A DNA stretch of 64,000 nucleotides from Sphingomonadaceae bacterium 3R27C6 (lineage in GTDB: Bacteria > Pseudomonadota > Alphaproteobacteria > Sphingomonadales > Sphingomonadaceae), in contig SCNS01000003.1 of the NCBI GenBank assembly GCA_005503215.1, positions 155,001-219,000 on the forward strand, in the 5' to 3' direction. Below the pieces are notes generated by a model. The model did no database searches, had not been told where the DNA came from, and saw only the letters and a program-made list of their open reading frames with translations. This document shows, one piece after another, positions 49,627 through 64,000 of the stretch; position 1 is the first letter of the stretch, and every line of letters begins with the position of its first letter. The position numbers and the translations under genes were made by a program.

Positions 49627-52600
49627 TTATTCCGCCGGAACCGGCAGTGCGGTCCCGTGGTCGTCCGACCCGCGCCGCGCGCGCCGCTCAGCCGACCATA
49701 TGCTGAGCGCGCGTGCGACGACGTAGAAGGTCGGGGTGAAGATGAGGCCGAACGCCGTCACGCCGAGCATGCCGAAGAAGACCGCGGTGCCGAGCGCCTG
49801 GCGCAATTCCGCCCCCGCCCCGCTTGCGATCAACAGCGGCACCGCGCCGAGGATGAAGGCAAAGCTGGTCATCAGGATCGGGCGCAGACGGTCGCGCGCG
49901 GCGCGCACCGCGGCTTCGATCGGCGACAGCCCATCCTCTTCCTCGGCCTGCTTGGCGAATTCGACGATCAGGATCGCATTCTTCGCGGCGAGCGCGATGA
50001 GCACGACCAGCCCGATCTGCGTCAGCACATTATTGTCCATGCCGCGCAAATTCACCCCGACCATCGCCGCGAGCAGACACATCGGCACGATGAAGATGAT
50101 CGCCAATGGCAGCATCAGGCTTTCATATTGCGCCGCGAGCACGAGGAAGACGAAGACCACCGCGAGCGCGAAGACGATACCCGCGGTGTTCGCCGCCGCC
50201 TTCTGCTGGAAGGCGATTCCCGTCCATTCGGTGCCGTAACCCGCCGGGAGCGTGTCCGACGCGAGCTTCTCCATCGTCGTCAACGACGCGCCCGACGACG
50301 AGCCCGGAGCGGTGTCGCCGTCGATCTCGACCGCGGGGAAGAGGTTATAGCGCGTGACGCGATACGGCCCCGTGCGGTCCTCGAAATTCGCGACCGACCC
50401 GATCGGCACCATCGCGCCCGAGTCCGACCGGGTGCGAAGATTCGCGATATCGGCGACGGTCTGGCGATAGGGCGCGTCGGCCTGTGCGGTCACACGATAG
50501 GTGCGCCCGAGCAGGTTGAAGTCGTTGACGAACGCCGAGCCGAGATAGACCTGCAACGCCTCGAACACGCGTTCGGGCGGGACGCCGAGCATATTCGCCT
50601 TCGCCCGGTCGATATCGGCATAGACGCGCGGGTTCGACGGGTCGAAGAAGGTGAAGACGTTCGCGAGCCCCGGGGTCTCGTTCGCCTTGCCGATCAGATT
50701 GTTCGTCTCGTTCGCGAGCGCGGCATAGCCGTTCCCGCCGCGATCCTGCACGATCATCCGGTAACCGCCCGCCGAGCCGATGCCCTGGATCAGCGGCGGC
50801 GGGATGATGACGATCTGCGCCTCGGTGATGTCGGCGGTGTTTGCACGCGCCTGATTCATGATGTCCTCGAAATTGACGCCGAGCTTCCCGCGCTCCTCGA
50901 ACGATTTGAGCGGGAAGTAAGCGGCGGCCGAGTTCGGCGCGAGCGTCTGCGACGGGCCATCGAAGCCCGCGAGCATCACCGAGCCGAGGACGCCCTCGAT
51001 CGGCAGCACGCGCGCCGCGACCTTTTTGAGCACCGCATCGGTGCGCTCGACCGAGGCGCCCGAGGGCAGTTTGGCGACGACGAGGAAATAGCCCTGATCC
51101 TGCGCGGGAATGAAGCCGGTCGGCGTCGCCCAGAACAGGCCCGCGGTCGCGGCGATCAACCCGGCATAGGTGACCATCATCTTCTTCGGCGCGCGGACCA
51201 GCCGGTCGGTCAGCCGCGCATAACCGTTGCTCAGCTTCTCGAAGCCCTCGTTGAAGCGATCGCCAGCACGGTGGATACGCGCCATCAGCCATCCGTCGGC
51301 CTGCGCGGGCGCGTGCGGCCTCAGCAGGATCGCCGCAAGCGCGGGCGACAGGGTGAGCGACAGGACGAGCGAGATGATCGTCGCGGTCGAGATGGTGACC
51401 GCGAACTGCTGGTAGAAGGCACCCGACAGGCCCGTGAGGAACAGCGTCGGCACGAACACCGCGCAGAGCACGAGCACGATCGCGACGAGCGCACCCGACA
51501 CTTCATCCATCGATGTGCGCGCGGCTTCGAGCGCGCTCATCCCTTTCTCGAGATTGCGTTCGACATTTTCGACCACGACGATCGCGTCATCGACGACGAT
51601 ACCGATCGCGAGGACGAGCCCGAACAGCGACAGATTGTTGAGGCTGTAACCGAACGCCGCGAGCACCACGAAGGTGCCGATCAGCGACACCGGGATCGCG
51701 AGCACCGGGATGATCGCCGCGCGCCATTTCTGCAAGAAAACCAGGATGACGATGACGACGAGGATGACGGCTTCGAACAACGTCTCCATCACCGCGTCGA
51801 TCGACTGGGCGATGAATTCGGTGGGGTTATAGATGACGCGATATTCGAGGCCCTTGGGGAAGCTTTTCGACGCTGCCGCCATTTCGGCCTCGACCGCCTG
51901 CGCCGCAGCGAGCGCGTTCGAACCCGGGCGCTGGAAGGTCGCGAGAATGACCGTCGGATCGCCCGACAAATAGGTGTTCGAATTATAATCCGATGCGCCG
52001 AGCTCGACGCGCGCGACGTCCGAGACGCGGACCTGCCGCCCGTCGGCATCGGTACGGATGACGATATTGGCGAAGTCCTTGGGGTCGGTCAGGCGGCCCT
52101 GCGTCTCGACGCTCAATTGGAAACTGCTGCCGTTGGCATGCGGCGGCTGGCCGAGCGAGCCCGCGGCGACCTGCACATTCTCGCGGCGCAGCGCGGTCAC
52201 GATCTCGCCCGCGGTCAGGTCGAGCGCGGCGGCGCGGCCGGGGTCGATCCACACGCGCATCGCATAGTCGCGGCTGCCGAACAGGCGCACGTCACCGACG
52301 CCGTCGATGCGGGAAAGGCGATCGCGGAGCTGGGTCAGTGCATAGTTGGAGATGTAGGCGCGATCGAGCGACTTGTCGGGCGACACCAGGTTCACGATCA
52401 ACAGGAAGTCGGGCGAGGTCTTGCGCGTCACCACGCCGAGCCGCTGCACGGTTTCAGGCAAGCGCGGGGTCGCGATCGCGACGCGGTTCTGCACCAAGAC
52501 CTGCGCGGCATCGAGGTCGGTGCCGATCTTGAACGTCACGGTGATTGTGACGACGCCGTCGCCGGTCGACTGGCTGCTCATATAGAGCATATTGTCGACG

Positions 52601-52818
52601 CCGTTGATTTCCTGCTCGATCGGCGCCGCCACCGTATCGGCGACGGTTTCAGCCGACGCGCCGGGATAGGTCGCGGTCACGGTCACCGTCGGCGGGACGA
52701 TGTCGGGATATTGCGACACGGGAAGCCCGATATAGGCGACCGCACCGATGATGGTGATGATGACAGCGAGCACGGCGGCGAAGATCGGCCGGTCGATGAA
52801 AAAGCGGGATAGGCGCAT
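49627..52818 (-). CDS. RND multidrug efflux permease (HAE1/AcrB type)
   Basis: 1,063 residues with the twelve-helix, two-large-loop architecture of AcrB/MexB. The proton-relay aspartates are Asp410-Asp411 in GIVVDDAIVVVENVER, and the start MRLSRFFIDRPIFAAVLAVIITIIGAV plus the second-half GLVVLIALAAKNAILIVEFAKQ are diagnostic. It exports drugs, detergents or other amphiphiles from the inner membrane and periplasm through the outer-membrane factor, driven by protons. ATG 52818 follows AGGGGC. It lies between adaptor and outer-membrane genes; a palindromic repeat cluster sits in the 185-base gap to the adaptor gene, which may tune relative expression. A long opposite-strand open frame is a shadow. 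Confidence 0.96.
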   Translation of the reverse strand: MRLSRFFIDRPIFAAVLAVIITIIGAVAYIGLPVSQYPDIVPPTVTVTATYPGASAETVADTVAAPIEQEINGVDNMLYMSSQSTGDGVVTITVTFKIGTDLDAAQVLVQNRVAIATPRLPETVQRLGVVTRKTSPDFLLIVNLVSPDKSLDRAYISNYALTQLRDRLSRIDGVGDVRLFGSRDYAMRVWIDPGRAAALDLTAGEIVTALRRENVQVAAGSLGQPPHANGSSFQLSVETQGRLTDPKDFANIVIRTDADGRQVRVSDVARVELGASDYNSNTYLSGDPTVILATFQRPGSNALAAAQAVEAEMAAASKSFPKGLEYRVIYNPTEFIAQSIDAVMETLFEAVILVVIVILVFLQKWRAAIIPVLAIPVSLIGTFVVLAAFGYSLNNLSLFGLVLAIGIVVDDAIVVVENVERNLEKGMSALEAARTSMDEVSGALVAIVLVLCAVFVPTLFLTGLSGAFYQQFAVTISTATIISLVLSLTLSPALAAILLRPHAPAQADGWLMARIHRAGDRFNEGFEKLSNGYARLTDRLVRAPKKMMVTYAGLIAATAGLFWATPTGFIPAQDQGYFLVVAKLPSGASVERTDAVLKKVAARVLPIEGVLGSVMLAGFDGPSQTLAPNSAAAYFPLKSFEERGKLGVNFEDIMNQARANTADITEAQIVIIPPPLIQGIGSAGGYRMIVQDRGGNGYAALANETNNLIGKANETPGLANVFTFFDPSNPRVYADIDRAKANMLGVPPERVFEALQVYLGSAFVNDFNLLGRTYRVTAQADAPYRQTVADIANLRTRSDSGAMVPIGSVANFEDRTGPYRVTRYNLFPAVEIDGDTAPGSSSGASLTTMEKLASDTLPAGYGTEWTGIAFQQKAAANTAGIVFALAVVFVFLVLAAQYESLMLPLAIIFIVPMCLLAAMVGVNLRGMDNNVLTQIGLVVLIALAAKNAILIVEFAKQAEEEDGLSPIEAAVRAARDRLRPILMTSFAFILGAVPLLIASGAGAELRQALGTAVFFGMLGVTAFGLIFTPTFYVVARALSIWSAERRARRGSDDHGTALPVPAE

Positions 52819-52850
52819 GGGAGAGCCCCTGTTCTATGTCTAAATCCAAA

Positions 52851-52994
52851 CCTCCCCCTCCCGCCTGCGGGAGGGGCAGCGAGACCGCGAGCTTTGCTCG
52901 CTAGTCGCAGCGGGGTGGGCCGTTGAGACGAAGCTGGCCCACCCGTGGTCAGAGGCACGTGACTCTGACCACCCCCTCCCGCAAGCGGGAGGGG
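52851..52994. repeat. GC-rich palindrome cluster between adaptor and pump genes
   Basis: Two nearly identical palindromes CCCCTCCCGC..GCGGGAGGGG (52855-52876 and 52973-52994) flank a perfect GTGGTCAGAG/CTCTGACCAC inverted repeat and a GGTGGGCC/GGCCCACC pair. The make-up recalls the cluster at 9997. Location inside an operon suggests an effect on differential mRNA stability or partial termination. Confidence 0.65.
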
Positions 52995-53003
52995 AGAAGA
53001 TGG

Positions 53004-54275
53004 TTACCTCGCGAATGTCGCCTGCGCCGACACCGGTTCGACTGCGGCAGCCGCACCCTTGGGGGGTGCCACGGCGGCGATCTTACCAGCCTTGGCCACG
53101 GCCTTTTCGCCGGGACGCGCGAACTGATAGCCGTTGATGACGACGCGGTCGGTCGGCGTCAGGCCCGAACGGATGACGCGCAGGCCATCGACTTCGGGGC
53201 CAAGCTCGACCGGCTTCGCCGCGACCATGCCGTCCTTGCCGACGACATAGACGATCTTGCGTGCCTGGTCGGTCTGCACCGCCGCAGCGGGGATCAGCAG
53301 CGCGCGCGCGGCCTGGCCGGTCGTCAGGCGCATGTTGCCGAACATGCCGGGGGTCAGGAACATTTCGGGGTTGCGGAAGCTGGCGCGCGCGCGGATCGTG
53401 CCCGAACGCGGGTCGAGGCCATTGTCGGTGAAGTCGAGCTGGCCCTTCCAGCGATAATCGCTTTCGTCCTGCAGGCGTACTTCGACCGCCGCACCCTTAT
53501 CGCCGCCCTCGCGCTTGGTCTTAAGGAACAAAGCTTCGGATCCCTGGAAGGTGAAGTAGACGGGATCGAGGGCGTTGATCGTCGTGAGCAAGGTGCCACC
53601 GGCATCGCCCGCCGACACGAGATTGCCCGCGTCGATCTGGCGGTCCGAGATGCGGCCGCTGAGCGGCGCGCGGACGGTGGTGAATTCGACGTCGAGCGAA
53701 CGCGCCGCGATGCGGGCGTCGGCGCCGGCGAGCGCGGCATTGGCCGCGTTGACGCGGGCACGGAGGCGATCGATCTCGCTCTGCGATACCGCCTCGACAT
53801 CGACGAGGCGGCCGGCGCGTTCGAGTTCGAGCCGCGCGAGCGCGAGGTCGCTGCGCGCGCTGGCAGCCGAGGCGCGCGCTTCGGCAAGCGCGGCGCGATA
53901 GGGGCGCGGATCGATGGTGAAGAGCGGCTGGCCCTGGCGGACGATCTGGCCGTCGGTGAAATGGATGCCGGTGATCGCGCCCGAAACGCGCGGGCGTACT
54001 TCGACCGCTTTCGACGCCTCGAAGCGTCCGATATATTCGTCCCATAAGGTCACGTCGCGCGCGATCGGTGCGGCGACAGTAAGCACGGGCGCGGGCGCTG
54101 CGGCCGCCTGCGGCGGACCGTCGCGGAGCAGCCACCAAGCGCCGATCACGAGCACGAGGAACGCACCGATCCACGCGGCGCGGCGGCCGCGGCCGGGGTG
54201 GAGCAATGTCCTGAGTTCGCGCCGGACCTTCGCGTCGGCGGGGTCGAGTTTTTCGATCGGGGTGTGGACGGTCAT
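53004..54275 (-). CDS. RND efflux periplasmic adaptor (MexA/AcrA type)
   Basis: 423 residues from ATG 54275 (MTVHTPIEKLDPADAK), which follows AGAGGGC. There is no lipobox; instead one membrane anchor (33-50). The order is lipoyl half, long helical hairpin (ARASAASARSDLALARLELERAGRLVDVEAVSQSEIDRLRARVNAAN), second lipoyl half, beta barrel and membrane-proximal domain (GTIRARASFRNPEMFLTPGMFGNMRL). It bridges pump and outer-membrane channel. It is first in the efflux operon, with a leader of about 340 bases and a promoter overlapped by an operator. Confidence 0.95.
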   Translation of the reverse strand: MTVHTPIEKLDPADAKVRRELRTLLHPGRGRRAAWIGAFLVLVIGAWWLLRDGPPQAAAAPAPVLTVAAPIARDVTLWDEYIGRFEASKAVEVRPRVSGAITGIHFTDGQIVRQGQPLFTIDPRPYRAALAEARASAASARSDLALARLELERAGRLVDVEAVSQSEIDRLRARVNAANAALAGADARIAARSLDVEFTTVRAPLSGRISDRQIDAGNLVSAGDAGGTLLTTINALDPVYFTFQGSEALFLKTKREGGDKGAAVEVRLQDESDYRWKGQLDFTDNGLDPRSGTIRARASFRNPEMFLTPGMFGNMRLTTGQAARALLIPAAAVQTDQARKIVYVVGKDGMVAAKPVELGPEVDGLRVIRSGLTPTDRVVINGYQFARPGEKAVAKAGKIAAVAPPKGAAAAVEPVSAQATFAR

Positions 54276-54609
54276 GGAAATGCCCTCTTCTTTTCGTTCG
54301 TTTTGGCCGCCTGCGCCCCCGGGGGAGGGGGAGGGAGGCGCAGGCAGCCAGCGCCGGAAGCGCATGCCTCCGGCTGGTGTCGCAAATGGTCCTGTTGCCA
54401 GAGGGCCCTCATCGAAGAGGACGGCCGCCCTGTCCCGTCACGCGCATCCCATGCGCGCGCGGGGTCCCTGTCTATATCTTGCGGGCAAGCGCCTTCGGGC
54501 GCCCGACCGGAGCAAGACCCGCTCCCGGGAAATATTCGATGGTGAAACTTCCGGCCGCCGCACGATCTTTGTCACGCAGCGGCCGGTCTCGGGGGAGAGC
54601 CTATCGTTG
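54276..54609 (-). other. Long structured leader of the efflux operon
   Basis: From the promoter at 54620-54648 to the adaptor ATG the leader is about 340 bases and holds no convincing gene. A perfect inverted repeat GCCTGCGCC (54309-54317)/GGCGCAGGC (54337-54345) encloses a run of Gs about 35-70 bases before the start codon, followed by a CCGG/CCGG-type hairpin at about 54350-54377. A regulatory role is possible but unproven. Confidence 0.4.
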
Positions 54610-54618
54610 TATACTGAG

Positions 54619-54648
54619 TGGTATATAAGTCATGTTGCGCTGCGTCAA
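54619..54648 (-). promoter_or_regulatory. Efflux operon promoter overlapped by a TetR-type operator
   Basis: On the minus strand -35 TTGACG (54648-54643), a 17-base spacer, -10 TATACC (54625-54620). The 12-mer TGGTATATAAGT (plus strand, 54619-54630) covers the -10 and part of the spacer; the same 12-mer occurs before tetR. A TATAC-N6-GTATA inverted repeat (54610-54625) overlaps it. Binding there would block transcription. Confidence 0.6.
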
Positions 54649-54736
54649 GACCATTCTGTACCGAGCAGTAAAATTTTTCTTTCCGAGCGTTTACCGAAAC
54701 AGTGGGCGCCGGTTTTTCGGCCGGCAAATGCTCAGA
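54631..54736. other. Rest of the tetR-efflux gap
   Basis: Between the operator and the tetR stop I see no gene or repeat. It contains the -35 region noted above and an AT-rich stretch. No obvious terminator after tetR, so read-through into the efflux operon is conceivable. Confidence 0.3.
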
Positions 54737-55357
54737 TCAACGCCCCGGCCACAGCTTCAGGCTGGTTTCGACAAGCCGTTCGAGTTCGGCGCGCGTCGCG
54801 CCGGCGCCGGCCTGCACCGACATGCCCTGGTTCACCGCGGTCAGGAACGCCGCGAGCCCTTCGGCGTCGGTGTCGGGCGGGAAGTCGCCCTCTTCCTTGG
54901 CGCGCGCGAAGCGTTCGAGCATCGCCCGCTTCGCCGCCGCGCCGCGTTCGAGCACGGCCTGGCGAATACATTCGGCCTCGGCGCCGCACGCGACCGACGT
55001 GATCACGCCCAGACAACCGTTCGGATTCTCGGGGCAGGTGTACATGTCGAGCGCGCCGTACATCAGCCGCTCGGCGACGCCGCGCGCGGTCGGCGCATCG
55101 AGCGCCGCATGCATATAGTCGGCCTTTTCGCGCTCATAGAGGTCGAGCGCCTTGTTGAAGAGCGCTTCCTTGTTGCCGAAGGCCGCGTACAAACTCGGCT
55201 TGGTGATTCCCATCGCCTCGGTCAAATCGGCCATCGACGCGCCCTCATAGCCCTTCGACCAGAAGACGCGCAGCGCCGCCGCGAGCGCCATGTCGACGCA
55301 AAATTCGCGCGGACGGCCCTTATGCGGTGTGGCAGCGGTGGCGGTTTCTATTTCCAT
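54737..55357 (-). CDS. TetR/AcrR-family regulator
   Basis: 206 residues from ATG 55357 (MEIETATAATPHKGRPREFC). An N-terminal three-helix DNA-binding domain with the helix-turn-helix at about 38-62 (YEGASMADLTEAMGITKPSLYAAFGNKEALF) is followed by the ligand-binding core, which includes CPENPNGCLGVITSVACGAEAECIRQAV with four cysteines. It likely represses itself and the downstream efflux operon, released by a pump substrate. The putative -10 lies only nine bases before the ATG, so the mRNA is probably leaderless. The upstream frame does not resemble the family. Confidence 0.93.
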   Translation of the reverse strand: MEIETATAATPHKGRPREFCVDMALAAALRVFWSKGYEGASMADLTEAMGITKPSLYAAFGNKEALFNKALDLYEREKADYMHAALDAPTARGVAERLMYGALDMYTCPENPNGCLGVITSVACGAEAECIRQAVLERGAAAKRAMLERFARAKEEGDFPPDTDAEGLAAFLTAVNQGMSVQAGAGATRAELERLVETSLKLWPGR

Positions 55358-55363
55358 AACGGC

Positions 55364-55395
55364 TGGTATATAAGTGGTAGATCGCAACTTGTCCA
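55364..55395 (-). promoter_or_regulatory. tetR promoter and operator (second copy of the 12-mer)
   Basis: On the minus strand -35-like TGGACA (55395-55390), 17-base spacer, -10 TATATA (55372-55367). The plus-strand 12-mer TGGTATATAAGT (55364-55375) covers the -10. The -10 ends nine bases before the tetR ATG, which implies a leaderless transcript and direct autorepression. Confidence 0.6.
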
Positions 55396-55407
55396 GTGAC
55401 GCGCCGA

Positions 55408-55788
55408 TCACGCGAGCCGCGTGTCGATCGGCAGTCCGCCCTTCAGCGTCAGCGTCACCGGCGTTCGCTCGGCAATGTCGGCGAGCCGCGCCTTCTGTTC
55501 GTCGTCGAGCCCCGCGATCGTCAGCACCCGGTCGACCCGGAGGCCGTCCTTGTTGACCAGCCGCAGGCCGACATCGACCGATTCGAGCGGCCATTCCTTG
55601 CGGTCGGCGTACATGCGCAATGTGATCGCGGTGCACGCGCCGAGGCCCGCGAGCAGGAAATCATAAGGCGCCGGTCCCAGATTCTGCCCGCCCAGCCCCG
55701 GCCCCTCGTCGCTGATCAGGTCATGGCCGCCGACGTTGATCTCGGTGCGATAATGATCCTTGCCGATGCGGGCGGTGCCATGGGCCAT
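55408..55788 (-). CDS. OsmC-family protein lacking the second cysteine
   Basis: 126 residues from ATG 55788 (AAGGAC seven bases upstream); a slightly longer start at 55803 is possible. The OsmC fold is indicated by GPAPYDFLLAGLGACTAITLRMYA with Cys52. The usual second reactive cysteine, normally in a CPVH-like motif near the C-terminus, is replaced: here the text is AERTPVTLTLKGG. Thus the two-cysteine peroxidase chemistry of classical OsmC/Ohr is unlikely, though related single-cysteine members exist. Its gene lies 50 bases upstream of tetR on the same strand, so it could be part of the same stress response. Confidence 0.85.
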   Translation of the reverse strand: MAHGTARIGKDHYRTEINVGGHDLISDEGPGLGGQNLGPAPYDFLLAGLGACTAITLRMYADRKEWPLESVDVGLRLVNKDGLRVDRVLTIAGLDDEQKARLADIAERTPVTLTLKGGLPIDTRLA

Positions 55789-55988
55789 GCTGCTGTCCTT
55801 CATCAAACGGGTCCGACGGAAACGTCTTTCCCGGCAGCGCGCGCAAACGGCAAGCGGAAATGCGGGACGATTCACAAGCCGGATATCGTCCGCCTGGCTC
55901 CGTGTGCGGGGCAAACGCAAACGTCTTGAACTAGCCGCCCGGAATCCTACATTGATTTCATCGTCAACAAGCGAAAGGAGGTGGTCGA

Positions 55989-56746: not shown

Positions 56747-57199
56747 GATGCGCGCCACTTCGCCGCGCTCGACTACCTCGCGCGCTACACCCACCGCGTC
56801 GCCATATCGAGCAGCCGCCTCCTTCGCTTCGACGAGGCCGGGGTCACCTTCCGCTACAAGGACTACCGCAAGGCCGGCGCCGGACGGCAGCAGATCATGA
56901 CGCTCGCCGCCGACGAGTTTATCCGCCGCTTGCTCCTCCACGCCCTGCCGCGCGGGTTTCACCGCATCCGTCACTATGGCCTCCTCGCCAGCGCACGCCG
57001 CAAGGATCATCTCGAACGCGCGCGCCGCCTGCTGGACGTCGCGCCGCCACCGGCCGACGAACCGACCGACGAGCCCTCGCCCCAGCCGACCTGCCCGTGC
57101 TGCGGCGGCACCATGGTGATCATCGAGGTCTTCGAGCGCCGCTATCAGCCCCGCGCGCCGCCACCGCCATCACTCTCATCCGGAACACAGGCGCCGTGA
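56747..57199 (+). pseudogene. 3' remnant of an IS91-family transposase
   Basis: Frame from DARHFAALDYLARYTHRVAI (56747 onward) to the stop at 57199, about 150 residues, closely parallel to residues 250-397 of the intact transposase at 58529-59722 (RYTHRVAIS, FRYKDYRK, TLAADEFIRR, HALPRGFHRIRHYGLLA, CPCCGG). The YLARY pair corresponding to the catalytic tyrosines remains but the zinc-binding N-terminus and HUH motif are gone, so it is inactive. It abuts the truncated Fur gene. Its sequence differs clearly from the intact copy, so it belongs to a different IS91 relative. Confidence 0.85.
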
Positions 57200-57618: not shown

Positions 57619-58524
57619 ATGACTACCGCTACGACCGATATACCCGCCACCCCGCTTCGCCAACGTATGCAGCATGATATGATGATGCGCGGCCTGGGTC
57701 GGCATACCCAGCAGGACTATATCCGCCACGTCCGACGCTTCGCCGCATTCCTTGGTCGTCCTCCCGATACGGCAACGGCGGAAGATCTCCGGCGCTTCCA
57801 GCTATCTCAGCACGAGAAGGGCGTCAGCGCGTCAACCATCAACGGCGCCGTCTCGGCCCTGCGCTTCCTGTTCGCCGGGACTCTCGGGCGGCGGGATCTG
57901 GCGCGGTCGCTCGTCATCACGCGTAATCCGCGCAAGCTGCCCGATGTGCTCAGTGTCGATGAAGCGGCGAAGCTACTCGAAGCAGCGCCGGGGATCAAGT
58001 ACAAGGCTGCGCTCGGTGTCGCCTATGGCGCGGGGCTGCGTGTGTCGGAGGTCGCGCACCTGAAGGTCGATGATATCGACAGCACCCGCATGCTGATCCG
58101 CGTCGAGCAGGGCAAGGGACGCAAGGACCGCAATGCCATGCTCTCGCCGCAGCTGCTTGAGCTGCTCCGGATGTGGTGGCGCGAGGGCAAGCGACGCAAC
58201 GTCATGCTGCCCCATGGCTGGCTGTTCCCGGGGCGCAGCTGCACCGATCCGGTCTCGACCCGGCAGTTGCATCGCGCGGTTCAGGAAGCTGCTGAGGTCG
58301 CCGGCATCCGCAAGCGCGTCAGCCCGCACACCTTGCGCCATAGCTTCGCAACGCATCTGCTCGAGCAGGACGTCGATATCCGTGTGATCCAGGTCCTGCT
58401 TGGCCACAGCAAGCTGGAGACGACCGCGCTCTATACCAAGGTGTCGACGCGAACGATCCACGCCGTCGCCGGTCCGCTCGACCGGCTGATGGCCCTGATG
58501 GCGGACGAAGCGCCGCCCGGCTGA
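57619..58524 (+). CDS. Tyrosine recombinase/integrase of the IS91 element
   Basis: 301 residues. An N-terminal SAM-like core-binding domain (about 13-92) is followed by the catalytic domain. The active residues are Arg141 (GAGLRVSEV), a Lys in the GKGRKDR strand (Lys166 or Lys169), His237 and Arg240 (HTLRHSF), His263 (LLGHS) and Tyr272 (TTALYTKV), all present. ATG 57619 follows GAAGAGGAGC. Several IS91-family elements carry such a recombinase upstream of the transposase; its role in transposition (resolution or target choice) is not settled. Confidence 0.93.
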   Translation: MTTATTDIPATPLRQRMQHDMMMRGLGRHTQQDYIRHVRRFAAFLGRPPDTATAEDLRRFQLSQHEKGVSASTINGAVSALRFLFAGTLGRRDLARSLVITRNPRKLPDVLSVDEAAKLLEAAPGIKYKAALGVAYGAGLRVSEVAHLKVDDIDSTRMLIRVEQGKGRKDRNAMLSPQLLELLRMWWREGKRRNVMLPHGWLFPGRSCTDPVSTRQLHRAVQEAAEVAGIRKRVSPHTLRHSFATHLLEQDVDIRVIQVLLGHSKLETTALYTKVSTRTIHAVAGPLDRLMALMADEAPPG

Positions 58525-58528
58525 GCCA

Positions 58529-59722
58529 GTGCAGACCTCGATCGAGGTCGCCGATATCTTCCGCAGCGCGGGGTCCGCCTATCGAGCCGCCCATGCTGGG
58601 CATCTCAGCCTCCAACAGCTCAAGGTCGTGTCGGCGATCGAGCAGTGCCGGACCGCGGCGCTCGGCGGTCACGTCGAGGCCTGTGAGGACTGCGGACATT
58701 GGCGTATCGCCTATAACAGCTGCCGTAACCGTCACTGCCCCAAGTGTCAGGGAGCCGCCGCGCGCACCTGGCTCGAGGCGCGGGAGGCCGATCTTCTCCC
58801 GGTCGGCTATTTCCATGTCGTGTTCACGCTGCCCGCCGAGGTCGCCGACATCGCGTTCCACAACAAGGCGGTGGTCTATGATCTCCTATTCCGGGCGGCT
58901 TCTGCCACGATGCTGACCATCGCTGCCGACCCCAGGCATCTTGGAGCCCGGATCGGCATCACCGCCGTGCTCCACACCTGGGGATCCGCGATGACGCACC
59001 ACCCACATGTGCATATGATCGTGCCCGGCGGCGGCATCGCGAACGATGGCACTCGCTGGATATCGTCGCGGCCCGCGTTCCTGTTACCGGTGCGCGTGCT
59101 CGGACGGCTGTTTCGGCGCCTGTTCCTGACTCAGCTGCTGGCGCTGTACGATGCCCGGCGCCTCAGCTTCTTCGGCGCAATGGCGCCGTTTGCCGAACGC
59201 CGGGTCTTCCTCCGCCACCTGTCGCCGGTCAGGAAGAAGCGCTGGGTCGTCTATGCCAAGCCTCCGTTCGCCGGGCCCGAGGCCGTACTCGCCTATCTGT
59301 CGCGCTACACCCACCGGGTCGCGATCTCGAACCGGCGCCTGCTCGCATTCGGCGATGCCGGCGTGACCATGCGCTACAAGGATTACCGTCGCGATGGCGC
59401 CGACCGCCAACGCGTCATGACGCTCAGCGCCGACGAGTTCATCCGCCGTTTCCTGCTCCATGTTTTGCCGCGCGGCTTTCACCGCATCCGCCACTATGGC
59501 CTGCTCGCCGGCTCCGCCCGGAAGGCCAGCCTCGCGCTTGCCCGCGAGCTGCTCGATGTCATACCGGATGCCGAGGAGGCGCCGCTCGACGGGCCGATCG
59601 ATCCGGCACCGCCATGCCCCTGCTGCGGCGGCAAGATGATCGTGATCGAGGTTTTCGCACGATGGCGCCAGCCTCGTGCCCCGCCGAGTGCCGCCGCTCC
59701 GATCCGGACGATCGCGTCATGA
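58529..59722 (+). CDS. tnpA: IS91-family HUH transposase
   Basis: 397 residues from GTG 58529, five bases after the recombinase stop. The N-terminal zinc-binding motif is CEDCG..CRNRHCPKC (Cys52, Cys55, Cys65, Cys70, Cys73). The HUH metal motif is HPHVH (158-162). The catalytic tyrosines are in YLSRYTHR (Tyr256, Tyr260), the spacing of Y2 transposases. A second CxxC (CPCCGG) lies near the C-terminus. It nicks single-stranded DNA at oriIS and drives rolling-circle transposition. All key residues are intact, so the copy may be active. Confidence 0.93.
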   Translation: MQTSIEVADIFRSAGSAYRAAHAGHLSLQQLKVVSAIEQCRTAALGGHVEACEDCGHWRIAYNSCRNRHCPKCQGAAARTWLEAREADLLPVGYFHVVFTLPAEVADIAFHNKAVVYDLLFRAASATMLTIAADPRHLGARIGITAVLHTWGSAMTHHPHVHMIVPGGGIANDGTRWISSRPAFLLPVRVLGRLFRRLFLTQLLALYDARRLSFFGAMAPFAERRVFLRHLSPVRKKRWVVYAKPPFAGPEAVLAYLSRYTHRVAISNRRLLAFGDAGVTMRYKDYRRDGADRQRVMTLSADEFIRRFLLHVLPRGFHRIRHYGLLAGSARKASLALARELLDVIPDAEEAPLDGPIDPAPPCPCCGGKMIVIEVFARWRQPRAPPSAAAPIRTIAS

Positions 59723-60274: not shown

Positions 60275-62650
60275 ATGTCATCCACCGTAAATCGTCGAAT
60301 CCAGATTGCCCTGCTTGTCAGTGCCAGCACCGTCGCTGCGCTCGCGGCCCTGCCCGCCGCGGCCGCAGAACCCGATCGTGAAGACACAGCCGCCTCTGAA
60401 ACCGCCGAATCGACCGACATCGTGGTGACAGCCCGCGGCAGGGAGCAGCGCCTGCTCGATGTGCCGGTTGCGGTGTCGGTCGTGTCGGGCAGCGACCTTG
60501 AACGGGCCGATCTGCGGAGCCTGCAGGACGTGACGGCACGTCTTCCCAATGTACGCATCAACAGCGGGACGAACACCGATGTTCTGGTCGTGCGCGGGGT
60601 GGGGTCGGGCGCAAATGTCGGCTTCGAGCAAGCTGTGGGCACATTCGTCGACGGTGTTTATCGCGGCCGGTCGCGGGCGACGCGCGCTGCGCTCTTCGAC
60701 CTCGACCGGATCGAGGTATTGCGCGGACCGCAAACCACCTTCTTCGGCCACAACGCGGTAGCCGGTGCGCTCAACATCGTGACACGCAAACCCGGCACCG
60801 AGTTTTCGCTCAATGGCAGCGCCCTCTATGAAGTCGAGCATGGCGAATACTCGCTCGAGGCCGGCGCGACGGTTCCGCTTGCCGACAGCCTGTCGATCCG
60901 CGTCGCGGGCCGCCTGTCCGGAATGGAGGGCTATGTGCGCAACACGACGCTCAACCGCGACGGCCCCCGCATGCGCGACCGCATCGGACGGGTTTCAGTC
61001 CGCTTCGAGCCGAGCGCTTCCTTCCGCAGCGATCTCCGCGTCGATACAGCGCGCCTCCGCTCGCGCGACGCATTTCCGGGGGAAATCAACGGCTGTCCGC
61101 CGGCGGCAGTATATGGCGCCCCGGGTCTGGCCTGCGGCCAGCTGCTTGCGAGCGCATCGCCCGAGGCAAGCCTCAATTATCGCGCAGCGGGCCGCGAAAG
61201 CTTCTTTCGCTATGATTATACCGAAGCTGCCTGGACGAACACATTCCAGCTCGGCGGCGTCACGCTGACCTCCATCTCCGCCTATTTCGACCATGATAAC
61301 GACGCGAAAATTCAGCTCATTCCGACCCCTAACATCGGCTTCGGAGGCAGCGGCATCCTTCCCACCCGCAATCTGGAATCATACGAACAGCTGAGCCAGG
61401 AGCTTCGGCTGCAGTCGGATACGGGCAACATGATCGACTGGATGGTCGGCGGCTATTACGCCCATGGCAAGCTCGAAGCCCGCAACCGGACAGGCTTCCA
61501 CTTCGTACCATTTGCCTTGATCACCCCTGGGCTGATCACTCCGCTGCGCCCGAATGACCCGATCGCGGGCCGGCCGACGTTGTCGCAGCGTGACGACGTC
61601 TATTCTGTCTTCGGGTCCATGACATTGCGCGCGACCGAGGATCTGCGCCTGAACGTCGCCGCGCGCTATTCGAAAGTCGACAAGCGCGGCAGCAGGACAA
61701 TGTCCTGGGGGCTGCTTGACGGGAACCTCGGCGAGAATTTCGTGGCCCTGCCGCTCGCCGATCAGATCCTCATCAACGCGGGGCGCGGCTCCTCGATGGC
61801 ACAATATCCAATCACCAGCCGCAGCGACGACAAGTTCATGCCGTCCGTCGGGGTCGAATATGATCTCGCGCCGGATATCATGGCCTATGCGACGTACAGC
61901 TATGGCTTCAAGGCGGGCGGTTACGACGCCAGCGCGCAGGGCGGAATCTACGGCCCCGAGACGGTGAACGCCTATGAGCTGGGGATCAAGGGATCGGTCG
62001 CAGGCGGACGCGGGAGTTTCAGTCTCGCCCTGTTCCGGTCGGATTATACGGATCTTCAGGAAACGTCGATCATCTTTACCGGAACGGGGGCGCAGCAGTC
62101 GATCACCTCGGTGGTCACCAATGCCGCTGGCGCGCGTGTTCAGGGCGTCGAGTTCAGCGGTTCCGCCCGTCTTGCCGACTGGCTCCGGATCAACGCCGAT
62201 ATCGGCTATCTCGACGCCGTCTACAGCAACTTTCCCAATGCATCCTGCACGGTTCTCGCGACGGCGGGCAACCCGCGCTGCGTGCAGGACATGTCGGGCA
62301 AGAAGCGCGCCTATGCGCCGGACTGGACCGGAACGGTTGGGGCGAACATCACGGTGCCGCTGCGCGACGACATCTCGGTCCGCATCGATCCGTCGCTCTT
62401 TTTCACCTCGAGCTACTTCACCTCGGCAACGGCGGACCCGCTTCTCCGGCAGGCCGGCTTTGCGAAGGTCGACCTTCGCGTCGGTTTGGGCCCGGACGAT
62501 CGGCGCTGGGAAATCGCGCTCATCACGCGCAACCTGACCGACAAGGCGACTTCGAGTTTTATCGCGCCGCTCCCGACATCGAACGGCAGCACGATCGCCT
62601 ATGCTGACCGGCCGCGATCAATCGCGCTTTCGGCTTCGGTCAAGTTCTGA
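60275..62650 (+). CDS. TonB-dependent outer-membrane receptor
   Basis: 791 residues from ATG 60275 (GGGAG upstream). Signal peptide to about residue 31 (LAALPAAAAEP), TonB box DIVVTAR (48-54), plug domain (about 55-170: VPVAVSVVSGSDLERADLRSLQDVTARLPNVRI, ending LNIVTRKPG), then a beta-barrel with a terminal phenylalanine (SASVKF). It takes up a large or scarce substrate across the outer membrane with TonB energy. The substrate is not evident; the following SMP-30-like gene and a sulfatase suggest a sulfated or lactone-forming organic compound rather than iron. Confidence 0.94.
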   Translation: MSSTVNRRIQIALLVSASTVAALAALPAAAAEPDREDTAASETAESTDIVVTARGREQRLLDVPVAVSVVSGSDLERADLRSLQDVTARLPNVRINSGTNTDVLVVRGVGSGANVGFEQAVGTFVDGVYRGRSRATRAALFDLDRIEVLRGPQTTFFGHNAVAGALNIVTRKPGTEFSLNGSALYEVEHGEYSLEAGATVPLADSLSIRVAGRLSGMEGYVRNTTLNRDGPRMRDRIGRVSVRFEPSASFRSDLRVDTARLRSRDAFPGEINGCPPAAVYGAPGLACGQLLASASPEASLNYRAAGRESFFRYDYTEAAWTNTFQLGGVTLTSISAYFDHDNDAKIQLIPTPNIGFGGSGILPTRNLESYEQLSQELRLQSDTGNMIDWMVGGYYAHGKLEARNRTGFHFVPFALITPGLITPLRPNDPIAGRPTLSQRDDVYSVFGSMTLRATEDLRLNVAARYSKVDKRGSRTMSWGLLDGNLGENFVALPLADQILINAGRGSSMAQYPITSRSDDKFMPSVGVEYDLAPDIMAYATYSYGFKAGGYDASAQGGIYGPETVNAYELGIKGSVAGGRGSFSLALFRSDYTDLQETSIIFTGTGAQQSITSVVTNAAGARVQGVEFSGSARLADWLRINADIGYLDAVYSNFPNASCTVLATAGNPRCVQDMSGKKRAYAPDWTGTVGANITVPLRDDISVRIDPSLFFTSSYFTSATADPLLRQAGFAKVDLRVGLGPDDRRWEIALITRNLTDKATSSFIAPLPTSNGSTIAYADRPRSIALSASVKF

Positions 62651-62652
62651 CG

Positions 62653-63540
62653 ATGACCTACGGGCTGGCCGCGGCCATCGCGCTCACCCTCGCCGCCGCA
62701 CCACCTACCCCCGCTGCGGATCGCGCGGCCCCGCCGCCGGCATCGGACAGGTGGGAGGCGGTCGCCCGCTGCGGGGGCTTTCTGGAAGCGCCCACCCGGT
62801 TGCGGTCGGGCGAGCTTTCGGTCAGCGACCCGGTGGGCGGACGCATCTTTCGTGTCGACGATCGGGGCGTCTGCCACGCGATTATCGAGGGCAAGGACCT
62901 TCCCAACGGACAGGCGCTGGCCGCAGATGGCCGGCTCATTGTCGCGAACCGCGCGGGACTGATGATCGTCGATCCGGTCACCGGCAGCACCCGGCCGCTG
63001 GTCGAGCGCTTCGCCGGCGAGCCCCTCGCCATGGCCAATGATCTGTCGATCGACGGCTATGGCGGGATATATTTCACAGTGCCGGGGGGATCGTCGCTCC
63101 TGCGGCCCGATGGGAGGGTGTTCTATCTGCCTCCCGGCAGCCGCGAACCCGAGCTCGTGGCCGAGGGACTCGCCTTCCCGAACGGAATTGCCGTGGCACC
63201 CGATGGCAATGCGATCTTCGTGGCGGAATTCGCCGCCAAACGCATCCTCTTGATTCCGACCCGGCACTCACGTCGGCAGTTCAACGTCGCGCATGTCTTT
63301 GCCCATAGCCATGGCGGCGTCGGCCCGGATGGCCTCGCATTTGGAGACGATGGCACGCTCTATGCCGCGAATATCGAGGCGGGCACGATTTCTCGCTGGT
63401 CGCCGCAAGGGCAGGCCCTGCCCGACCTGCAGCTACCCGCGGAGGCCGGCCTGCTCGTCACGAACATATTGGTCGAGAAGCAGTGGCTCTATGCCACCGA
63501 GGCCTCGCAAGGTGTCCTTTGGCGAACCCGCATCCGCTAA
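62653..63540 (+). CDS. SMP-30/gluconolactonase/LRE-family beta-propeller protein
   Basis: 295 residues. An N-terminal signal (LAAAIALTLAAAPPTPA) suggests export. The body is a six-bladed propeller: blades marked by DGRLIVANRAGLMIVD, MANDLSIDGYGGIYFTVPGG, FPNGIAVAPDGNAIFVAE and GVGPDGLAFGDDGTLYAANI; the Asn-Asp pair of MANDLSIDG and the PDGLAF site are typical metal or substrate positions. Family enzymes open sugar or other lactones. It begins two bases after the receptor stop, so it is co-translated. It converges on the sulfatase with a 7-base gap. Confidence 0.88.
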   Translation: MTYGLAAAIALTLAAAPPTPAADRAAPPPASDRWEAVARCGGFLEAPTRLRSGELSVSDPVGGRIFRVDDRGVCHAIIEGKDLPNGQALAADGRLIVANRAGLMIVDPVTGSTRPLVERFAGEPLAMANDLSIDGYGGIYFTVPGGSSLLRPDGRVFYLPPGSREPELVAEGLAFPNGIAVAPDGNAIFVAEFAAKRILLIPTRHSRRQFNVAHVFAHSHGGVGPDGLAFGDDGTLYAANIEAGTISRWSPQGQALPDLQLPAEAGLLVTNILVEKQWLYATEASQGVLWRTRIR

Positions 63541-63547
63541 GGGTCCG

Positions 63548-64000
63548 TCATTCGACACCGAACCGGTCGGCCATATTCTTTCCCGAAAAACCGTGACTGT
63601 AGCTCTTCTCGTCGAAAGGAAGCATCGTCTCGTTCCAATGCTCCCATCGGCGCTTCAAATCGTCGAACAGTCCAGGGTTTCGCGCCCTGAGATTGCCGCG
63701 CTCGAGCGGATCCTGCACGACGTCGAAGAGAAACTCGTTTCCGTTTATCTTGAGATATTTATGATCTCCGAGCCGGCAGGCGGCTTGGTCGAGATGACGA
63801 TAGCGCCAGAAAAGTGGGCGCTCCTTCAACGCGCCGCCAAGCAGCGCCGGCATGATGTCGACGCCGTCTGTCGGATACAGCGGCGAGGATGTCGTACCCG
63901 CAAGGCCGAGCACCGTCGGCAGGAAGTCCATCGACATCACCTGCTCGGCCGTTTCGGCGCCCGGCCGGATCCGGCCCGGCCAGCGAATGAGCAACGGAAC
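63548..64000 (-). CDS. Sulfatase, C-terminal part (5' end outside window)
   Basis: The last 150 residues of an arylsulfatase-family enzyme: PLLIRWPGRIRPGAETAEQV near the edge, then MDFLPTVLGLAGT (the family DFLPTV segment), PTDGVDIMPALLGG, LFWRYRHLDQAACRLGDHKYL and LFDVVQDPLERGNL, all typical of the C-terminal sulfatase half. The catalytic formylglycine motif (CxPxR) lies upstream of the window. It hydrolyses a sulfate ester; its place beside the receptor/propeller pair suggests a joint pathway. Confidence 0.88.
   Translation of the reverse strand, partial: VPLLIRWPGRIRPGAETAEQVMSMDFLPTVLGLAGTTSSPLYPTDGVDIMPALLGGALKERPLFWRYRHLDQAACRLGDHKYLKINGNEFLFDVVQDPLERGNLRARNPGLFDDLKRRWEHWNETMLPFDEKSYSHGFSGKNMADRFGVE

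Follow-up and report, generated by a model that had tools for sequence, protein, structure and literature searches.

Positions 60275-64000 of a 64,000-nucleotide stretch of the genome of Sphingomonadaceae bacterium 3R27C6 (the whole stretch is referred to here as the window) carry genes for a TonB-dependent outer-membrane receptor (TBDR1), a beta-propeller similar to SMP-30/gluconolactonase and an S1-type sulfatase. This trio forms the margin of a cluster that spans 21 genes and 23.5 kb (60275-83737), in which the genes are arranged in tight runs. We consider it moderately likely that the trio serves as the entry module of a cluster that catabolises a bulky, sulfate-conjugated phenol; the compound would be taken up, desulfated in the periplasm and degraded via meta-cleavage. 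The window is part of a 313-kb contig (G000:C33:155001-219000). Coordinates above 64000 continue its numbering along the contig (L002, L003), and gene starts were chosen among the in-frame starts.

A sequence-only reading of the window had proposed these three genes and, based on them, the uptake and desulfation of an organic sulfate ester. The genes are indeed present, and all of their Pfam domain matches are above the curated cut-offs. TBDR1 (60275-62650, forward strand) matches the TonB barrel (E 9.5e-38) and Plug (2.5e-17) domains and is followed after 2 bp by the SMP-30-like gene (62653-63540, forward strand; SGL domain, E 2.4e-30, 106.4 bits against a cut-off of 26.3). The sulfatase gene (63548-64936, reverse strand, ATG at 64936; PF00884, E 1.9e-67) converges with the latter across a 7-bp gap and is truncated by the window end, so that only its 3' third (63548-64000) lies inside. 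The same reading had advised looking for more degradative genes past 64,000, and the contig revealed ring-cleavage genes up to 83737. Uptake and desulfation of a sulfate ester is kept as the best interpretation.

The ring-cleavage core comprises an HsaC/BphC-like extradiol dioxygenase (74547-75446, forward; HsaC model 187.7 bits, equivalog cut-off 450), an HsaB-like flavin reductase (75450-76007, forward; 62.8 bits, cut-off 230), an HsaA-like hydroxylase (76034-77236, forward; 308 bits, cut-off 450) and an HsaD/BphD-like hydrolase (65055-65897, reverse; BphD 225.7 bits, cut-off 462; HsaD 219 bits, cut-off 400). It is completed by a hydratase of the 2-oxopent-4-enoate type (80974-81762, forward), which stays below two equivalog cut-offs (294.9/350 and 232.7/408.8 bits), as well as by an acetaldehyde dehydrogenase (81759-82700, forward; 467.6 bits) and a 4-hydroxy-2-oxovalerate aldolase (82697-83737, forward; 566.4 bits), which pass theirs (282 and 286). 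H149, H214 and E265 of the dioxygenase, which we take to be the HsaC-type iron-ligand places, are invariant in all seven rows of the alignment. The structure model of this protein is closest to BphC and HsaC (Z 28.4-29.5, 34-36% identity in the structural alignment, ranks 1-8), and the top solved relative of the HsaA-like protein is the 3-HSA hydroxylase 2rfq. BphC and HsaC act on 3-substituted bulky catechols. The combination of a BphC/HsaC-like dioxygenase with a BphD/HsaD-type hydrolase and 2-oxopentenoate enzymes therefore suggests that the ring substrate is a bulky phenol with a substituent in the ortho position. The top PDB sequence match of the dioxygenase (23al/9x2g) was absent among the 50 fold-library entries listed (library to April 2026), and no relevant paper on it was found.

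Gene content, gene order, conservation and conserved catalytic-type residues are the observations from which we infer the following route, in which each reaction, the export, the ester class and the order of steps are predictions. TBDR1 would carry the sulfated compound across the outer membrane, and the exported sulfatase, matured by a formylglycine-generating enzyme (FGE) encoded elsewhere, would strip the sulfate in the periplasm, where the exported propeller may open a lactone of the same molecule. The HsaA-like enzyme together with the flavin reductase would hydroxylate the freed phenol, the HsaC/BphC-like dioxygenase would cleave the resulting 3-substituted catechol, and the HsaD/BphD-like hydrolase would release 2-hydroxypenta-2,4-dienoate. 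Hydratase, aldolase and acetaldehyde dehydrogenase could convert this product to pyruvate and acetyl-CoA, while the remaining carboxylic acid may be oxidised by flavoproteins with an electron-transfer flavoprotein (ETF) and cut by a lyase.

The same enzyme types and the same logic are found in the HsaA-HsaB-HsaC-HsaD system of steroid degraders with its downstream hydratase, aldolase and dehydrogenase, and in BphC/BphD of biphenyl degraders: a two-component phenol hydroxylase, a type I extradiol dioxygenase, a meta-cleavage hydrolase and a 2-oxopentenoate route. In contrast to these systems, the Hsa-type proteins here remain below the equivalog cut-offs, a sulfatase front end is added, and TcuA-like flavoproteins, ETF, a lyase and racemase-fold and isochorismatase-fold proteins are present. 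A plasmid cluster of Diaphorobacter sp. HDW4B (NZ_CP049906.1; L144 18053-23149) contains a flavin reductase and a hydrolase, dioxygenase, hydroxylase and hydratase that are 36, 48, 58 and 49% identical to ours. Its 36 annotated features over 41 kb, an annotation that is perhaps incomplete, include tripartite tricarboxylate transporter proteins instead of a sulfatase, SMP-30 or TonB receptor.

Conservation was analysed by searching fetched loci with the cluster proteins (tblastn). The core occurs in six other genomes (G367, G148, G149, G325, G582 and G516), with orthologs that are 52-90% identical and ETF subunits at the lower end. G367 holds the complete cluster on a single contig. In G148, an uncultured Novosphingobium metagenome-assembled genome (MAG) in which L108 and L147 are adjacent on one contig, no hydratase or aldolase was found in the 9 kb past ETF, and in the Hyphomonadaceae MAG G149 the cluster is split over two contigs (L148 and L052) without a second receptor between the isochorismatase-fold gene and FAD2. 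G325 lacks a close HsaD-like ortholog and has a 25% identical hydrolase after the dioxygenase in its stead; the G516 contig begins at the hydratase. A diverged seventh version in G866 shares proteins at 39-70% identity, apart from one receptor at 26%. The TBDR1/SMP-30/sulfatase edge is found in the same order in three of the six genomes (G367, G148 and G149), with identities of 74, 75 and 72% for the sulfatase, 67-71% for SMP-30 and 70-82% for TBDR1. Judged from the sequences, this shared order is beyond chance. Including our own locus and the diverged G866, where a 59-60% identical sulfatase directly follows the short-chain dehydrogenase/reductase (SDR) gene, a sulfatase adjoins the core in five of eight core loci. 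Our own locus, G367, G148 and G149 share one arrangement and were thus counted as one event. Given 10 sulfatase-fold places in the 5.06 Mb of our genome, we estimate that a stretch as large as the cluster would contain one by chance in ~5% of cases.

Across genomes the block is patchy. With our own genome included in each count, the sulfatase was detected in 12 of 148 relatives (E 1e-60; best other identity 60%), TBDR1 in 10 of 396 genomes of the order (E 1e-120; just one other above 50%, G367 with 78%) and the SMP-30-like protein in 10 of 296 genomes of the order (E 1e-25; just one other above 42%, G367 with 71%). The HsaA-like protein was present in 5 of 397 genomes of the family (E 1e-100; the other four 81-83% identical) and in 3 of 385 genomes of the class (same threshold; the other two 62 and 43%). 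A scan of named genomes, covering the 76 loci of the best 80 of 248 relatives and relying non-exhaustively on exact short peptide matches, revealed the block in two loci (L108 and L052). Because of this rarity the block is accessory; the sequence-only reading had named a fixed place in the core genome, together with a lack of response to sulfate esters, as what would speak against its proposal, and the first half of this is thereby answered. The presence in a sphingomonad and in a Hyphomonadaceae bin suggests transfer, with the caveat that bins can carry contamination.

The sulfatase shares with S1 formylglycine sulfatases (PDB 9fo1, 9hh3, 6bia and others) the Sulfatase domain, the C-x-A-x-R motif and the conserved GKWHLG and SDNGG blocks. 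The formylglycine motif has the consensus C/S-x-P/A-x-R. Here it reads CSATR (64688-64702) and lies, like an RR signal-like stretch, past the window end; it aligns with CSPTR of 9fo1. Both features occur in all seven aligned sulfatases (our own, G148, G367, G149, G058, G866 and G087, five of them from core-linked loci), with CSATR in six and CTATR in G087. Two genes with an FGE-sulfatase domain are located elsewhere in the genome, one on C52 and one on C49. Unlike the solved S1 enzymes, this sulfatase is set in an aromatic-catabolism cluster, and its substrate class is not deducible from the protein sequence. It is the gene context that points to an aryl sulfate; this assignment rests on context since carrageenan sulfatases and others acting on sugars head the solved relatives.

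The four close cluster copies grouped with the copies of L053 and L054 in a quick tree of 92 sulfatases (SH-aLRT 100). The G866 copy was placed apart in this tree, and an independent recruitment was considered and dropped, as an approximately unbiased test does not reject one clade that includes L053 and L054 (p 0.363), to which the G866 copy may thus belong. Sulfatase-phenol hydroxylase pairs are also found in other loci. In G001, G008, G022 and G059, a 50-52% identical sulfatase has an HsaA-like gene and a flavin reductase within ~7 kb. Contig C30 of G325 (L155 534-9219) combines receptors, a 50-53% identical sulfatase and TBDR1-like, HsaD-like and HsaA-like genes within ~6 kb, and the same genome has a sulfatase-free core. 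SfnB is a model for sulfur acquisition; the G325 C30 hydroxylase scores 322.8 bits for HsaA vs 47.7 for SfnB, with 140 bits for the HsaD model in that locus, and the G008 hydroxylase scores 216.5 vs 52.1 bits.

The SMP-30-like protein has an SGL domain above the cut-off in common with SMP-30, gluconolactonase and Drp35 propellers, as well as Glu, Asn and Asp at ligand-type places. E45, N129, N177 and D226, presumably metal-ligand-type positions, are invariant in five of five SMP-30-like rows, including a Comamonas protein at 33% identity, and Drp35 was also aligned. It differs from these propellers in its low similarity and in an N-terminus that, judged by eye, looks like a signal peptide. The fold model (pLDDT 70.9) is based on a thin alignment, too thin for a blade count, and matches propellers of several kinds at Z ~20. 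Opening of a lactone on the imported molecule by this exported propeller is a role that the retained lactonase-type residues may indicate. On the plasmid that encodes this Comamonas protein, its gene lies ~5 kb from that of a 51% identical sulfatase, and an isochorismatase and a lyase of the oxaloacetate-decarboxylase type are encoded close by. In G049 (L154 7971-12989) a 27-29% identical sulfatase-fold gene, a TBDR1-like receptor (43%) and a 29% SMP-30-like stretch are found in a row on one strand. This suggests that receptor, SMP-30 and sulfatase can belong together beyond this cluster, although both are single cases with no count against chance.

Several observations weigh against an entry module for a sulfated phenol. 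The sulfatase is encoded on the strand opposite to TBDR1 and SMP-30, so that a single transcript for the trio is not established. Its nearest solved structures are carrageenan sulfatases (S1_16, S1_19) and other sugar sulfatases, not aryl sulfatases. No sulfatase lies next to the core in G325, G582 and G516; G325 and G582 have sulfatases away from it (53%, on C30, and 38%, respectively), and G516 has none at E 1e-40. Desulfation may therefore be accessory or needed for some substrates only, and the core, with an adjoining sulfatase in five of eight loci, is the stabler unit. Conversely, the 40-kb stretch of G866 has the sulfatase and no ortholog of hydrolase, hydratase, acetaldehyde dehydrogenase, aldolase, TBDR1 or SMP-30. 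A 70% identical sulfatase is also present in L053 and L054, yet their genomes are without an HsaA-like gene at E 1e-40, and among 74 named loci of the sulfatase clade outside the cluster, some of them short, an HsaA-like neighbour at E 1e-20 is rare, with three cases.

That the core can occur without a sulfatase is also what would be expected if the sulfatase merely frees sulfate as a sulfur source and is only loosely associated with the ring-cleavage genes. We regard this as rather unlikely, albeit the strongest of the alternatives. Loci for sulfur scavenging typically contain TonB receptor, transporter, NMT1, TauD and luciferase-like genes. Related sulfatases in 22 loci have 84 neighbour genes, and among the 25 of 77 families shown for these, TonB receptors were the commonest (12), followed by transporters (MFS_1, 7); NMT1 (two) and TauD and luciferase-like genes (one each) also occurred. 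However, four genomes keep the sulfatase and the catabolic core in the same fixed arrangement, in G866 the sulfatase lies at the core edge, and the LysR regulator of the cluster (73522-74424, reverse) best matches the BsrA and LeuO models and no sulfur regulator.

It is improbable that the cluster encodes a diverged form of the 9,10-seco steroid (hsa/tes) pathway that is fronted by a steryl-sulfatase. The HsaA, HsaB, HsaC and HsaD models all match, and the HsaA-like protein has its nearest solved relative in a steroid pathway, but all four scores are below the equivalog thresholds given above. Moreover, the three flavoproteins FAD1-3 reach 144.8, 106.8 and 202.2 bits for PRK12844 (3-ketosteroid delta-1-dehydrogenase; cut-off 789), and the annotated genes of the block include no Rieske hydroxylase and no acyl-CoA side-chain genes.

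The carrageenan-type relatives of the sulfatase would also fit a glycan sulfatase, with a sulfated sugar or polysaccharide as the target of TBDR1, SMP-30 and sulfatase. Gluconolactonase is a member of the SMP-30 family, one relative adjoins a LacI regulator (G131), and the 84 neighbour genes include four MFS_2 sugar transport and three Sugar_tr members. We hold this to be just as doubtful as the steroid pathway: the annotated genes of the block contain no glycoside hydrolase, and a single such family (GH25, one member) was among the 25 of 77 neighbour families shown.

An IS91-type element, consisting of a tyrosine recombinase (57619-58524) and a Zn_Tnp_IS91/Y2 transposase (58529-59722), both on the forward strand, ends 552 bp before TBDR1. 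The sequence-only reading had held that it could have brought or could spread the locus, which the patchy occurrence across genera would allow. Neither the recombinase nor the transposase had a match in the stretches fetched for the other syntenic loci, which reach several kb on the TBDR1 side in G367 and G148 and ~0.8 kb in G149. One intact copy and short diverged matches were found in the genome, a 53-contig draft that can hide copies. A genomic island was also considered based on a step in GC and tetranucleotide composition near 55 kb and rejected, as the block is ordinary against genome-wide controls: its composition distance is 0.112-0.130 (windows starting 60001-80001) compared to a mean of 0.136 (sd 0.037) for 24 pieces of ten kb each, taken from 12 stretches elsewhere in the genome. 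Mobilisation of the locus by the IS91 element is thus very improbable, and the element is best treated as a neighbour and not as part of the cluster. Just before the intact copy lies the remnant of another IS91-type transposase (56762-57184), which shares 72% identity with it.

All parts of the cluster belong to known families, and their combination was not found in the open-licence PubMed Central (PMC) literature searched, where no paper joined a sulfatase with meta-cleavage, an extradiol dioxygenase, gluconolactonase, SMP-30, or HsaA and TonB receptors. The Variovorax isoflavone (ifc) cluster (PMC11069340) was considered as a model. In the passages on it there is no mention of hydratase, aldolase or TonB; sulfatase was not searched there.

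Animals, plants and algae commonly solubilise phenols by conjugating them with sulfate. To our knowledge, few gene clusters couple desulfation to complete ring breakdown. It may be speculated that the cluster is a dedicated pathway common to several genera, perhaps passed on between them, for the mineralisation of a bulky phenol, natural or man-made, that is conjugated with sulfate. Such a pathway would lead all the way from the outer membrane to central metabolism, would employ repurposed isochorismatase-fold and racemase-fold enzymes without their usual catalytic cysteines, and would serve a class of substrates that no gene cluster is yet known to handle; we put this forward as a tentative proposal. 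As a defined 21-gene set is common to several genera, some of which have the sulfatase edge and some of which lack it, natural variants make the role of desulfation testable.

The two unusual enzymes are encoded at 68958-69551 (isochorismatase fold, reverse) and 77240-78040 (racemase fold, forward). In eight of eight orthologs the former has GVATHLVVE or GVATNLVVE at what we take to be the place of the catalytic Cys in the cysteine hydrolases of this fold. In the latter, a conserved Cys is missing from both places presumed to be usual for its fold, again in eight of eight orthologs. Based on these alignments, both proteins may catalyse chemistry other than their family names imply, which makes these apparently cysteine-less relatives candidates for new reactions.

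The remaining cluster genes code for the SDR (65933-66685, reverse), the TcuA-like flavoproteins FAD1 (66682-68101, reverse; 367 bits vs a cut-off of 369) and FAD2 (72074-73525, forward; 542 bits vs 369), a methylisocitrate-lyase-like protein (68105-68953, reverse), the second TonB receptor TBDR2 (69631-71937, reverse), the flavoprotein FAD3 (78037-79386, forward) and ETF beta (79383-80132, forward) and alpha (80129-80875, forward). From the HsaC-like gene through ETF, genes are separated by 3-26 bp or overlap by 4 bp, followed by 98 bp before the hydratase. Promoter and terminator scans of L002 7700-20000 gave no excess over shuffles, and Rfam and tRNA scans of the window gave no matches.

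Outside the cluster, a second catabolic-looking set occupies 84418-91918 and continues beyond (L003, L156). It comprises a class II aldolase, a four-carbon acid sugar kinase-like protein, an HpcH/HpaI aldolase, a cupin, LacI, SnoaL and a TonB receptor, and was not seen adjoining the block in other genomes. On plasmid pNL2 of Novosphingobium aromaticivorans (L033 12388-26470) a TonB receptor and a sulfatase are located near VOC proteins, FAD monooxygenases and a hydrolase, and one of the VOC proteins weakly matches extradiol dioxygenases. To the left of the IS91 element, an RND efflux pump, a membrane-fusion protein, a TetR regulator and an OsmC-like gene are encoded at 49627-55920.

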